From positions 372,001 to 436,000 of the forward strand of contig MKSR01000008.1 in NCBI GenBank assembly GCA_001898145.1: DNA of 64,000 nucleotides. The letters run 5' to 3'. Every line of letters begins with the position of its first letter. Positions within the stretch are counted from its first letter, which is position 1. Below, in pieces: positions 6,708 to 48,696 of this stretch. The translations under genes were made by a program, and so were the position numbers. Origin of the DNA: Dyadobacter sp. 50-39. GTDB taxonomy: Bacteria; Bacteroidota; Bacteroidia; Cytophagales; Spirosomataceae. Under the pieces are notes generated by a model. It ran no database searches, had not been told where the DNA came from, and saw only the letters and a list, made by a program, of their open reading frames with translations.

Positions 6708-7124
6708 TCAGAAGTCGTTCTTGTATCTGGCCGACAGGAAGTAAAGCTCTATAACTGCCCCAATACCTACTCCCACGCTATAACAAACCAAATCGCTCCA
6801 AACGAATGTGAATCCAAGTATCAAGGCCCCCAGCGGCGTTTGCCGGATCGCGTCTATCCATGGTGCGTGGTAGATTTGGCTGAGCTCGATGCATGCCGAA
6901 AAGCAAAGCGCGGCCGTTGCTACTTTCCAGGCCGCCCATTTGCGGAAAACAAATGCGAAACCAAAGAACACCATCATCGCCCACAAAACATCGCCGACAT
7001 ACACACGGATGAAAGCATAATGCCCCAACAAGCGGCGCGATAAAAAACCGGCTAGCATTACACCGGCGGTAAGTGAACCGTAAAGCAACCTATTCCTAGG
7101 CCGCACGGGCGAATTGTTGTGCAT
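6708..7124 (-). CDS. DUF2809-type small integral membrane protein (full copy)
   Basis: About 138 residues with four or five hydrophobic segments. The segment around YAFIRVYVGDVLWA and the later IELSQIYHAPWID followed by a hydrophobic helix match my memory of the DUF2809 (VanZ-like) membrane family. Function is unknown. I choose ATG 7124 (MHNNSPV); a TTG two codons upstream is possible. The gene lies 43 bases after the stop of the 95-residue gene on the same strand and is probably in its operon. A truncated second copy of the same gene is at 13070-13270. In this copy an extra G in the stretch upstream shifts the frame relative to the second copy, which removes a longer GTG-initiated version. 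Confidence 0.75.
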   Translation of the reverse strand: MHNNSPVRPRNRLLYGSLTAGVMLAGFLSRRLLGHYAFIRVYVGDVLWAMMVFFGFAFVFRKWAAWKVATAALCFSACIELSQIYHAPWIDAIRQTPLGALILGFTFVWSDLVCYSVGVGIGAVIELYFLSARYKNDF

Positions 7125-7167
7125 AAGCAAAAAACCAAAAAGGGACCGCCACCGCAGTCCCCACTTC

Positions 7168-7455
7168 CTAAACCTTTTCGTCCATCTTTTCGAAGCCCTC
7201 CCAAAGTACTTTCAAATCAAAGAGTGCGGACTTTTCCGCTGCGTCAAACGGAACGTCCGAATGGTAAAGCGCCAGATCGTGGACCATCCTCAGCGAATGC
7301 GCCAGTTCCTTGCAGCCCTGCGATTCGACAAGGTACCAGAATTCGGCTTGTGATTGCGTCAGCGGAATGCTGACGTTGGATGCGTGACGTGCATCATTCG
7401 TGGGGTTGACTGAATGTTCCTTTGAGTCAACACCTTCGCCATTTGACGTTTGCAT
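7168..7455 (-). CDS. Conserved 95-residue protein, copy 1, under a structured leader
   Basis: I do not recognise the family. The protein has a variable Ser/Asn-rich N-terminus (MQTSNGEG) and a helical, acidic C-terminal part containing SQAEFWYLVESQGC and FDLKVLWEGFEKM. No signal peptide or membrane segment is seen, so it is probably cytoplasmic. A paralog at 13313-13600 has the same length and differs at only three of the last 67 residues. The start at 7455 is supported because the ATG falls at the same place in both copies; an upstream in-frame ATG at 7563 lies in the leader and is not conserved. Translation is likely controlled by the leader, whose segment B can pair over this start codon. 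The DUF2809-type gene follows. Confidence 0.72.
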   Translation of the reverse strand: MQTSNGEGVDSKEHSVNPTNDARHASNVSIPLTQSQAEFWYLVESQGCKELAHSLRMVHDLALYHSDVPFDAAEKSALFDLKVLWEGFEKMDEKV

Positions 7456-7612
7456 GGTAAAATGGATTTTAGTAAAAATAAAGGAGAGGTCACTGCAAAC
7501 GTCAGCGATGGAACACATCGACCAGGCTTCGGGACTTTCACCCGTATGCCTCTCCAAGACCATTTTTTCCTGGTTACTATTAATTGTTCCATAATTTTAC
7601 TCTAACGTTTGC
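7456..7612 (-). promoter_or_regulatory. Structured 5' leader with alternative pairing over the start codon, copy 1
   Basis: Read on the minus strand, the leader begins at or near segment A (7602-7612, GCAAACGTTAG). Next comes a core closed by GGAGAGG/CCTCTCC (7555-7549 with 7489-7483). The core holds a hairpin CGGG-TGAAAGT-CCCG (7544-7530), a second hairpin CGATG/CATCG, and segment B (7504-7494, TGACGTTTGCA). After the core comes segment A' (7454-7444, TGCAAACGTCA), which overlaps the AUG. B pairs perfectly with A' over 11 bases and with A over about 11 bases including one wobble. The two pairings exclude each other. The second leader at 13601-13763 has the same architecture with compensated changes. 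I infer a translational switch; the ligand or signal is unknown. Confidence 0.6.
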
Positions 7613-7616
7613 GGGG

Positions 7617-7624
7617 CAAATATA
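7617..7624 (-). promoter_or_regulatory. -7 box of the leader/95-residue gene promoter, copy 1
   Basis: TATATTTG on the minus strand fits TAnnTTTG. Transcription would begin about five bases downstream, at segment A. No clear -33 TTG is visible. The same octamer at the same distance precedes the second copy. Confidence 0.55.
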
Positions 7625-7789
7625 GGGAAATATCCGATGCTTCGAAGACGACATAATCCACAGCTAACACACGCCCGCAGGCTAAAAGCAGTTAAACCGA
7701 CGGACATTGTTAGCGGTATGGATGCCGAGCCATGGATTGATTCCACCCGCCAGAAAACGGATGCGTCTACACGCATTCAGTGGTCACCT

Positions 7790-12672: not shown

Positions 12673-13037
12673 AATTCGAAGAGAGCATATTAACAAAGAC
12701 TATTTACTATGTCGACGCTTCCATTTTGGCAACGATTGATGCCGATTTCAATTTTATCGAGGGTGCTGGCTGGTATGAGCTGTATCAATACAACTATGAC
12801 CAAAGCTTTTGGAGATTAGATAGATTTGATAAGCTGAAAGAGCGATTTTTTGTCAAACTTCCTTTCAGGGATGACTGGACTAACTACAATTCGCAGCAGA
12901 TGGAAATCGAGTTATTACGAAAAACGAGAGGTATTACAACATCGCCGTGTGTATGGCAGGAATGTGGAAAACCAAGTCTTATGGGACTTGCCTTTTGCGA
13001 AAGGCACGCATATTTTGAAATGGGAATCAGAAAGTAG
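12669..13037 (+). CDS. Hypothetical protein with C-terminal Cys/His cluster
   Basis: A 122-residue protein overlapping the AbiEii remnant by four bases (ATGA), so it was probably translated with it. The N-terminal two thirds are rich in Tyr, Phe and Asp. The C-terminal 35 residues contain C-x4-C followed by C-x2-H (CVWQEC, then FCERHAYFEMG), likely a small zinc-binding module. I do not recognise the family. A fragment of a related gene is found in inverted orientation at 14431-14469. The truncated DUF2809 copy begins only about 30 bases downstream, on the other strand. Confidence 0.55.
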   Translation: MKFEESILTKTIYYVDASILATIDADFNFIEGAGWYELYQYNYDQSFWRLDRFDKLKERFFVKLPFRDDWTNYNSQQMEIELLRKTRGITTSPCVWQECGKPSLMGLAFCERHAYFEMGIRK

Positions 13038-13069
13038 CTATTGTAATTGAATACACATATAAAAACCAT

Positions 13070-13270
13070 TTTCCAGGCCGGCCATTTGCGGAAAACAAAT
13101 GCGAAACCAAAGAACACCATCATGGCCCACAAAACATCGCCGACATAAACCCGGATGAAAGCATAATGCCCCAGCGAGCGGCGCGATAAAAAACCGGCTA
13201 GCATTACACCGGCGGTAAGTGAACCGTAAAGCAACCTATTCCTAAGCCGCACGGGCGAATTGTTGTGCAT
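13070..13270 (-). pseudogene. Truncated DUF2809-type gene, copy 2
   Basis: From ATG 13270 this encodes MHNNSPVRLRNRLLYG and continues, with few changes, to about FRKWPAWK. Homology to the full copy (6708-7124) then stops abruptly at TTTCCAGGCC (13070 here, 6925 there). The C-terminal half is lost and the frame runs into unrelated sequence. In this copy a GTG at 13309 is in frame because it lacks one G present in copy 1. Confidence 0.75.
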
Positions 13271-13312
13271 AAGCAAAAAACCAAAAAGGACCGCCACCGC
13301 AGTCCCCACTTC

Positions 13313-13600
13313 CTAAACCTTTTCGTCCATCTTCTCGAAGCCCTCCCAAAGTACTTTCAAATCGAAGAGTGCGGACTTTTCCGCTGCGTCAAACGGGATG
13401 TACGAATGGTAAAGCGCCAGATCGTGGACCATCCTCAGCGAATGCGCCAGCTCCTTGCAGCCCTGCGATTCGACAAGATACCAGAATTCGGCTTGTGATT
13501 GCGTCAGCGGAATGCCGACGTTGGATGCGTGACGTACATCATTCGTGGGATTGACTGAATTTACATTTGAGCCAACACCGGGACCATTTGAAGTTCGCAT
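13313..13600 (-). CDS. Conserved 95-residue protein, copy 2, under a structured leader
   Basis: A paralog of the gene at 7168-7455, of identical length, starting MRTSNGPG. The C-terminal two thirds are almost identical (Ser/Gly, Asp/Tyr and Val/Ile are the only changes in the last 67 residues), while the first 28 residues differ more. The second codon is CGA instead of CAA and the third ACT instead of ACG; both changes fall in segment A' and are matched in the leader. Function is unknown. It is followed by a truncated DUF2809 gene, so here the operon partner is broken while this gene stays intact. Confidence 0.72.
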   Translation of the reverse strand: MRTSNGPGVGSNVNSVNPTNDVRHASNVGIPLTQSQAEFWYLVESQGCKELAHSLRMVHDLALYHSYIPFDAAEKSALFDLKVLWEGFEKMDEKV

Positions 13601-13763
13601 ATCCTAAATGGAATAAGGTGATAAAAAATGGAGAGGTCACTGCGAACTTCATCAAAGCTGGCGCTAATGATAGGTCTCGGGACTCTCACCCGTATGCCCC
13701 TCCAAGACGATATTTTAAACCCAAGCTTCTGCATGAGCGCCATAAAAATTAATAAAGTTCGCA
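13601..13763 (-). promoter_or_regulatory. Structured 5' leader with alternative pairing over the start codon, copy 2
   Basis: The layout is the same as in the first copy. Segment A is at 13763-13753 (TGCGAACTTTA). The core is closed by GGAGGGG (13703-13697) with CCTCTCC (13636-13630). Inside are the hairpin CGGG-TGAGAGT-CCCG (13692-13678), a variable hairpin, and segment B (13651-13641, TGAAGTTCGCA). Segment A' is at 13599-13589 (TGCGAACTTCA). B pairs with A' over 11 perfect bases and with A over about 13 with one wobble. Relative to copy 1, two base positions changed in A, A' and B together. Confidence 0.6.
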
Positions 13764-13766
13764 GGG

Positions 13767-13774
13767 CAAATATA
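13767..13774 (-). promoter_or_regulatory. -7 box of the leader/95-residue gene promoter, copy 2
   Basis: TATATTTG on the minus strand, at the same distance from segment A as in copy 1. The predicted start is at the beginning of segment A. Confidence 0.55.
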
Positions 13775-48228: not shown

Positions 48229-48349
48229 TGCGTCAAGCCATTCCTGACCGCAGGAAAACTGACGTTGAAATTACTTGCATTTCTTCCTTCGGGTACCAAA
48301 CTTACACTCACCTAAAAATTTGTAACACAATGAAGAATCTTGCTAGCAT

Positions 48350-48424
48350 TGCCCTGCGATGGTGTGGGTGTGGCGAAAGCCCCCCGGACGTAGTTACATA
48401 CGTTAGGTCACCTTAGGCAGGGCA
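48350..48424 (+). ncRNA. Compact multi-stem element, possible leader RNA
   Basis: Outer stem GCCCTGC/GCAGGGC (48351-48357, 48417-48423) continues inward with GGTG/CACC (48361-48364, 48409-48412). Inside are a GGC-GAAA-GCC hairpin with a GNRA tetraloop (48372-48381) and a hairpin ACGTA-GTTACA-TACGT (48388-48403). It is flanked by two near-identical sequences, CCTAAAAATTTGTAACA and CCTAAAAATTGTAAAG, each followed by ATGAA. A 28-codon frame (48330-48416) runs through it. It precedes the 80-residue gene at 48454; a cis-regulatory RNA is one reading. Confidence 0.45.
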
Positions 48425-48453
48425 TTATTTATCAACCTAAAAATTGTAAAGTA

Positions 48454-48696
48454 ATGAAACCTTCATCACACACTACCGACTCCGAGGATTCGGTATGCCT
48501 CGCTTACGGCAGGCAGGTAAAAGAACTTTTAAATGCAGGCAGTCCTAGCGAAATGCTGGATCACCTTTGGTCCATTTACAGCGATGCCATGGCATTTCAG
48601 CAGGAAGCAGGCTACAACCCGCGTGTTAGTGACATTTTCATGACGTTTAGAGAGCTGGTATTTTTCATCCAGCGCCTTGAAAGTGTGAAAGTGTAA
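48454..48696 (+). CDS. Hypothetical small protein, 80 residues
   Basis: MKPSSHTTDSEDSVCLAYGR opens the protein; the rest is helical (MLDHLWSIYSDAMAFQ, DIFMTFRELVFFIQRLESV). No signal peptide or known motif. Its start context repeats one found 125 bases upstream. It might be regulated by the structured element before it. A long hairpin follows. Confidence 0.55.
   Translation: MKPSSHTTDSEDSVCLAYGRQVKELLNAGSPSEMLDHLWSIYSDAMAFQQEAGYNPRVSDIFMTFRELVFFIQRLESVKV

Follow-up and report, generated by a model that had tools for sequence, protein, structure and literature searches.

Leaders in Dyadobacter and other Bacteroidota that share the layout of the phage P1 C4 antisense RNA

We analyzed a 64,000-nucleotide stretch of the genome of Dyadobacter sp. 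50-39 (here called the window; contig MKSR01000008.1, positions 372,001 to 436,000) that contains two leaders in front of genes for 95-residue proteins. In each leader, an internal segment (B) can pair either with a segment at the 5' end (A) or with a segment at the start codon (A'). The three matching segments are real, and they are part of a structured RNA that recurs in many other Bacteroidota. Judged by analogy, this RNA is one that would work like C4, with the same layout but on a separate branch outside Rfam families RF01695, RF03163, and RF02944. We consider it likely that a C4-type antisense RNA is processed from each leader, that its target is the gene behind it, and that the freed antisense strand (a') blocks the start codon. 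The anatomy of the leaders, their covariation, their spread, and the match of their layout with the P1 record were observed directly and are described below.

Two copies of the leader in the window

All A, B, and A' segments were re-read and placed exactly in the window. In both copies they lie on the minus strand, as do all of the other features described in this section. Copy 1 opens with a promoter -7 element, TATATTTG (positions 7617 to 7624), assigned from its sequence and from the spacing of TTTG across instances, which we take to be of the Bacteroidota TAnnTTTG type. It is followed by A (a1, the 5' copy of the target sequence; GCAAACGTT; 7604 to 7612), recognized by pairing and covariation; by b1 (ATGGAACA; 7585 to 7592), the partner of b' in a complementarity test; and by c1 (CCAGG; 7569 to 7573), which forms a helix with c' (CCTGG; 7522 to 7526) in an alignment of 33 leaders. 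Alignment and sequence delimit a C4-like antisense RNA of 73 nt (7483 to 7555), which runs from the GGA of stem S1 to the S1 3' strand. Within it lie the S1 5' strand (GGAGAGG; 7549 to 7555), paired with the 3' strand (CCTCTCC; 7483 to 7489) on the basis of covariation and sequence; hairpin S2 (CGGG-UGAAAGU-CCCG, with a GNRA-like loop; 7530 to 7544), seen in the alignments; hairpin S3 (CGATG..CATCG; 7506 to 7520), with b' (7508 to 7515) in its loop region, from alignment and complementarity; B (a'; GACGTTTGC; 7495 to 7503), the partner common to A and A' by pairing and covariation; and a GTGA (7490 to 7493), conserved in the alignment of leaders, between a' and S1. A' (a2; GCAAACGTC; 7445 to 7453), identified in the same way as A, extends from the G of the AUG (7453 to 7455) into codon 4 of the 95-aa open reading frame (ORF; 7168 to 7455). 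A G+C hairpin followed by T5 (7137 to 7162) resembles a terminator, judged by sequence alone.

Copy 2 has the same TATATTTG element (13767 to 13774), together with A (GCGAACTTT; 13754 to 13762), B (GAAGTTCGC; 13642 to 13650), and A' (GCGAACTTC; 13590 to 13598), which were placed by pairing. It also has complementary b1 (TGGCGCT; 13736 to 13742) and b' (AGCGCCA; 13659 to 13665) strands and a C4-like antisense RNA of 74 nt (13630 to 13703), delimited by comparison of sequence and structure. Its 95-aa ORF (13313 to 13600) is 89% identical to that of copy 1. A first-pass annotation of the window, in which the three-segment arrangement had been proposed, described the copy 2 segments correctly but gave them coordinates that were one base too long at each end.

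In both copies, 4 nt separate the end of TATATTTG from the start of A, and TTTG stands 4 to 6 nt upstream of a1 in 40 of the 49 instances of a wider set (see below). From the position of the promoter element, A is predicted to be the 5' end of the transcript, in agreement with the first-pass annotation.

A gene for a DUF2809, VanZ-like protein lies 3' of copy 1 (6708 to 7130), and only its 5' part lies 3' of copy 2 (12884 to 13309), indicating that both copies belong to a duplicated stretch whose end lies within this gene.

Covariation of the three segments

Two bases differ between copies 1 and 2, and each difference is matched in A, B, and A'. B:A' comprises 11 perfect pairs in both copies, including the U and G of the AUG, while A:B, which includes a U.G wobble, comprises 11 pairs in copy 1 and 13 or more in copy 2; the sequence confirmed the earlier description of both pairings (11 perfect pairs and about 11 to 13 pairs with a wobble, respectively). 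When the leaders were folded alone, copy 1 did not stand out from shuffles (z score of -1.55; 15 of 200 were as good) and had a minimum containing B:A', and copy 2 had a z score of -2.62 (1 of 200 shuffles) and a minimum containing A:B.

A motif search yielded 53 distinct Dyadobacter leader cores. Position-wise pairing was assessed in 49 of these, leaving out three with a failed promoter or A' pattern and one relic. At each of nine core positions, A:B was paired in 96 to 100% and A':B in 92 to 100% of the 49 leaders; these values are partly imposed at the first six positions, part of which is fixed by the search patterns for the promoter, A, B, and A'. These patterns leave free the A/G alternation at the third core position and the T/G/A and T/C changes at the seventh to ninth positions. 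Truncated second copies 3' of the ORF (in L030, L029, and L041) are relics and were excluded from the pairing count.

Several types of sequence, or tags, occupy A, B, and A' in the Dyadobacter leaders (GCAAACTT, GCGAACTT, GCAAACGT, GCAAACAT, and GCAAACTC). In four leaders (L030, L051, L055, and L067), A' was complementary in its first six bases only. Leader L043 is a chimera: its 5' half (a1 and b1) comes from one tag type, and its antisense RNA and start codon come from a different one. Its A does not fully match B, and the fit is full for a':a2 only.

An independent MAFFT alignment of 33 leaders (25 from Dyadobacter and 8 from other Bacteroidota) showed A:B paired in 98.0% of cells, with five of nine pairs changed on both sides, and B:A' paired in 96.3%, with six of nine pairs changed on both sides. 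The covariation score of A:B or B:A' was reached by none of 500 shuffles, and the count of further pair types for B:A' was reached by 49 of 500. The proposal of three segments with matched changes, B being common to A and A', was borne out in the 49 Dyadobacter leaders and in the 33 aligned leaders.

Structure of the core RNA

In the 33-leader alignment, closing stem S1 was 99.6% paired (six of seven pairs changed on both sides), S2 was 98.5% paired (no pair changed on both sides), and c1:c' (helix 2) was 80.6% paired (four of five pairs changed on both sides). S3, with 69 to 85% of cells paired, had less support than S1 and S2. The whole structure was 93.1% paired, and none of five measures was reached by any of 500 shuffles. 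S1 crosses A:B and c1:c'; the precursor would therefore be a pseudoknot. The S3 loop and the leader were complementary (b1:b') at p ≤ 0.05 in 43 of 54 leaders and at p ≤ 0.01 in 30, and this further covarying pair, as far as its sequence tells, fits b1:b' of C4. Neither b1:b' nor closing stem S1, which crosses A:B, had been noticed in the first-pass annotation, and the Rfam c4-2 RNA in the same window (see below) had likewise been missed.

Conserved, unpaired CAUA and GUGA adjoin S1, and the loop of S2 is a GNRA loop. GG was present at the S1 5' end in 32 of the 33 leaders of the alignment (A5) and, among the 49 wider instances, at the corresponding alignment position in just 20. A core model (R2) was prepared from 23 diverse sequences and comprises S1 and S2, which were 98.0% paired in these sequences, with 10 of 11 pairs changed on both sides.

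Conservation due to an upstream reading frame was considered and rejected. Only 31 of 49 leaders have an ATG 3' of A that opens a frame running through the RNA, and in L027 this frame contains a stop; the changes in the stems are better explained by pairing than by such a frame.

Comparison with the C4 RNA of phage P1

The closest known system is the C4 antisense RNA of phage P1, a textbook example. In the P1 record, the order is a1 (48255 to 48261), b1 (48269 to 48276), c4 (48343 to 48419), a2 (48423 to 48429), b2 (48452 to 48459), and icd (from 48470), and its note on a2/b2 refers to repression of icd ant translation. In P1 C4, a' (nucleotides 51 to 57) is unpaired and lies between the third and the closing stem, and b' (nucleotides 37 to 44) is in loop 3. 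One report describes C4 as an RNA of about 77 nt with three stem-loops that RNase P cuts at a GGW, where the 5' strand of stem P1 begins; its b' targets the ribosome-binding site and its a' confers specificity (PMC5320573); its role over ant is outlined in another (PMC8198154).

Like the C4 RNA of P1/P7 (RF01695; a1/b1, RF03163), the Dyadobacter RNA lies upstream of, and in the same predicted transcript as, its putative target gene, and the order is the same, i.e., a 5' target copy, the antisense RNA, and a target copy at the gene start. A corresponds to a1, B to a' (between stem 3 and the closing stem), A' to a2, and the S3 loop to b'. Both RNAs have three stems (a closing stem plus two hairpins), with a length of 73 to 74 nt in Dyadobacter and 77 nt in P1, and S1 of the Dyadobacter-type RNA often starts with GG, like the processing mark of P1. 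The first-pass annotation had recognized no known riboswitch or thermometer class in the leader and had let the enclosed structured core decide between the two pairings. Neither a lack of resemblance to any known RNA nor a core that senses and decides was supported; the core has the three-stem layout of P1 C4, B is at the place of a', and A and A' are at the places of a1 and a2 in the P1 record. The two RNAs also differ. The Dyadobacter a2 lies on the AUG itself, whereas the P1 b2 lies just before icd; the Dyadobacter leader has the extra c1:c' pairing and the CGGG-GNRA-CCCG form of S2; and a general b2, looked for near the start of the gene, was not found.

Rfam gave no match in the window from 7350 to 7660 at E values up to 10, and the Rfam models C4, c4-a1b1, and c4-2 gave none to the Bacteroidota leaders at E values up to 10 or at the gathering threshold. 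As a positive control, P1 matched C4 at 68.8 bits and c4-a1b1 at 51.0 bits. Comparison of R2 with P1 C4 and with the c4-2 RNA of the window produced nothing above chance.

The Bacteroidota RNA is mostly chromosomal and has several copies with different tags, whereas the table of Weinberg 2010 lists C4 in Proteobacteria and phages (PMC2864571). C4-derived sRNAs of Acinetobacter baumannii are described as likewise having many chromosomal copies that differ mainly in the specificity loop and as carrying the GGW mark; unlike the Bacteroidota RNA, they are recognized by Rfam as C4 (PMC5320573). Titles, the starts of abstracts, and counts in the literature revealed no listing of the Bacteroidota leader RNA.

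Distribution and tag sequences

Nine loci with the 95-aa family were found in other Bacteroidota, and the whole leader was present at eight of these (L126 being the one without it). The first-pass annotation had looked to further copies covarying before a homologous 95-residue protein, and such copies exist in Dyadobacter and as the eight leaders outside it. New tags with the pairing kept include TCAACACA (L114) and GCGAAACG (L125). The upstream flanks of L114 and L116, from two unrelated genera, contain a similar inverted-repeat-like sequence (AACGGTTT...GTTATCGGC), which is perhaps an array or insertion site.

The genome searches covered samples, with strict filters above 40 genomes. Model R1 had matches in 3 of 395 genomes of the phylum and 22 of 390 genomes of the order, and some of the leaders stood before different proteins. 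R2 had matches (E ≤ 0.01) in 12 of 395 genomes of the class and 40 of 222 genomes of the family (the genome sets overlap), with up to nine in one genome; from one set of 40 hits, two (L232 and L233) were dropped as false by eye. A scan of IMG/VR by the core motif identified three contigs, and a longer pattern had no match there.

The A, B, and A' sequences were quite different in the R2-found members of the phylum. We chose 49 instances by motif pattern (36 divergent instances, 7 from other Bacteroidota with the 95-aa family, and 6 from Dyadobacter). Within this motif-selected set, the best pairing of a 22-nt stretch around B exceeded that of shuffles at p ≤ 0.01 upstream in 39 instances and downstream in 30. 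That a1 and a2 match B despite differing sequences indicates turnover of tags with the pairing kept. By our tally, the downstream match reached p ≤ 0.05 in 35 of the 39 instances outside what we term group 2 (L179 and L223 to L231) and in 1 of 10 within it, away from the start codon. In group 2, S1 is longer, the ORF starts 5 to 18 nt 3' of it, and the core and A:B are retained; a2 at the start codon is absent in this group (10 of the 49 chosen instances).

Within genomes, identical 10-nt tags were present in 2 of 63 pairs, compared with 6.9 expected from shuffles (0.024). The corresponding values for other tag lengths were 0.045 (11 nt) and 0.34, 0.20, and 0.067 (8, 9, and 12 nt), all in a test of 61 instances only, including two relics. 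A lower frequency of identical tags among same-genome copies than among shuffled ones would be expected if tags act in trans, for which these counts are weak and indirect support.

Degraded second C4-like cores were observed directly 3' of the ORF in two species (L030, at 1086 to 1271 of L147; and L146, at 1916 to 2096). Neither of these cores has a recognizable A'.

Genes downstream of the RNA

The 95-aa protein had two matches in its own genome and was present in 28 of 222 family genomes, all of which belong to 1 of 36 genera (Dyadobacter). There were up to eight matches per genome, many of them fragments; on one contig (C3 of G071, 486786 to 566292), at least five matches to the gene, some of them fragments, lie within about 80 kb. 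The predicted structure (mean pLDDT, 72.9) has a three-helix bundle and 28 disordered residues at its start, and a median dN/dS of 0.112 (673 pairs; 41 sequences) indicates purifying selection. The protein had no Pfam family above the cut-off, only weak hits in NCBIfam, PHROGs, and PADLOC, and weak hits among PDB sequences, and its predicted fold had no PDB match at E ≤ 0.001. No relative was found in phage and plasmid records or in IMG/VR, and no likeness to P1 Icd was detectable.

Two of ten scanned proteins downstream of the RNA had a Pfam family above the cut-off, namely, Phage_pRha (L175) and Bro-N (L215); the remaining eight had none. Rha and Bro-N proteins are products of antirepressor-type phage genes, like P1 ant, which favors the C4-type reading. 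The leader-plus-Bro-N stretch was searched for in phages and was not found. Profile comparison revealed no relation among the 95-aa, group 2, and c4-2 ORF families, and no homology of the downstream proteins to one another was found. In L150 and L163, a 107-aa ORF is followed by a reading frame whose product, by eye, resembles a LAGLIDADG protein.

Proposed mechanism and alternative explanations

If the leader is a C4-type precursor, the transcript would start at or near a1, and the 73- to 74-nt RNA (S1, GNRA hairpin S2, and S3) would lie between a1-b1 and the start-codon copy a2. The a' strand could pair with a1 or a2, and b' in the S3 loop could pair with b1. In the precursor, a1-b1 (with c1) would mask a'-b' and leave the start codon free. 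A cut at the 5' side of S1, like that made by RNase P for P1 C4, would free a', which would then pair with a2, either in cis or on any further transcript that carries this tag, and block initiation at the AUG itself. The first-pass annotation had also taken B:A' as the blocking state, which seems the natural reading of the segments. We infer the processing, the action in trans, and the repression and its direction by analogy with P1.

The predicted a1-b1 duplex was stronger than a':a2 in 48 of 49 leaders, a comparison in which the longer stretch is favored by its length, but at an equal length of 12 nt, a2 paired with a' more strongly than a1 did in 37 of 49 leaders. This combination is consistent with a1-b1 acting as a mask in the precursor whose removal would release a'. 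A scarcity of Shine-Dalgarno sequences, which Bacteroidota are reported mostly to lack (PMC3155529), would explain why the AUG itself is the target. Several observations count against the C4-type reading: group 2 has no a2 at the start codon, no general b2 was found, the models of Rfam and R2 do not link the RNA to C4 or c4-2, GG at the S1 5' end is infrequent in the wider set, and the 95-aa protein does not resemble P1 Icd.

The mutually exclusive pairings within one leader could instead constitute a cis-only three-strand riboswitch or thermometer, in which a ligand or condition favors A:B (ON) or lets B:A' form (OFF). The conserved unpaired CAUA and GUGA at S1, the GNRA loop, and the opposite states into which copies 1 and 2 fold alone are in keeping with such a switch. 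We nevertheless regard it as unlikely because the layout is that of C4, the downstream genes have no common pathway, the tags vary freely from copy to copy (a ligand switch would have no need of this), and group 2 retains the core and A:B without A'. The riboswitch families of Rfam had no match to the window or the leader. Still less probable is autoregulation, with the ORF protein binding its own leader core and shifting the balance; the leader and the 95-aa family do occur together in Dyadobacter and at eight of the nine outside loci, but the same RNA also stands before unrelated proteins, with three downstream families unrelated by profile. We give equally little weight to a type I toxin-antitoxin-like gene silenced by its own leader until processing. 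The small ORFs, the many copies and fragments per genome, and an internal antisense strand that masks the start codon would suit it; however, the 95-aa protein is not predicted to be a membrane peptide, and PADLOC returned one weak match in 1 of 20 members (Csf1; 0.0056).

The first-pass annotation had itself named target-site duplication as a reading that would overturn its proposal. With A and A' as such duplications or as remains of recombination, and B as a chance inverted repeat, one could account for the repetition of the unit within genomes and for the L043 chimera, with its A unmatched to B. This explanation is refuted in the main by the triple covariation over many distinct tags, in which A and A' change together with B, and by the two further covarying stems; we consider it highly improbable.

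The C4-type reading, if true, would place the C4 trick in another phylum, largely on chromosomes, and in control of at least four protein types unrelated by profile or family searches. The natural tag variants would allow direct tests of the pairing rules and of what a1-b1, the long-unexplained 5' copy, does, and the RNA would offer the first regulatory handle on a 95-residue family unrecognized by the protein libraries used. A broader version of the C4-type reading, which we put forward only tentatively and hold to be rather doubtful, is a widespread, mostly chromosomal silencing system of Bacteroidota. Each gene copy would carry a private tag three times (at the 5' end, in the antisense strand, and at the start codon), the 5' copy serving as an anti-antisense within the RNA. 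Copies within one genome would be kept orthogonal by cross-silencing, like phage immunity groups, and an arriving element whose tag is already known there would be silenced at once.

A c4-2 RNA in the same window

The window also contains an Rfam c4-2 RNA (RF02944; 48350 to 48426, plus strand), identified by an Rfam match, and an 80-aa ORF after it (48454 to 48696, plus strand). c4-2 was present in 15 of 39 relatives, with four matches in this genome, and an ORF family of about 80 aa followed most of the c4-2 copies examined in Dyadobacter. Like the Dyadobacter leader RNA, and in the same genus, c4-2 is a three-stem sRNA (of the C4 Rfam clan) followed by a small ORF; unlike it, c4-2 is unmatched by R2, and the ORF families are unrelated by profile. 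In a test for 5' and 3' target copies, both sides reached p ≤ 0.05 in 1 of 21 c4-2 instances, one of the 21 (L251) not having been extracted; this weak outcome is not counted as support. On one contig (C30 of G076, 255986 to 256657), three c4-2 RNAs stand in tandem about 300 nt apart.
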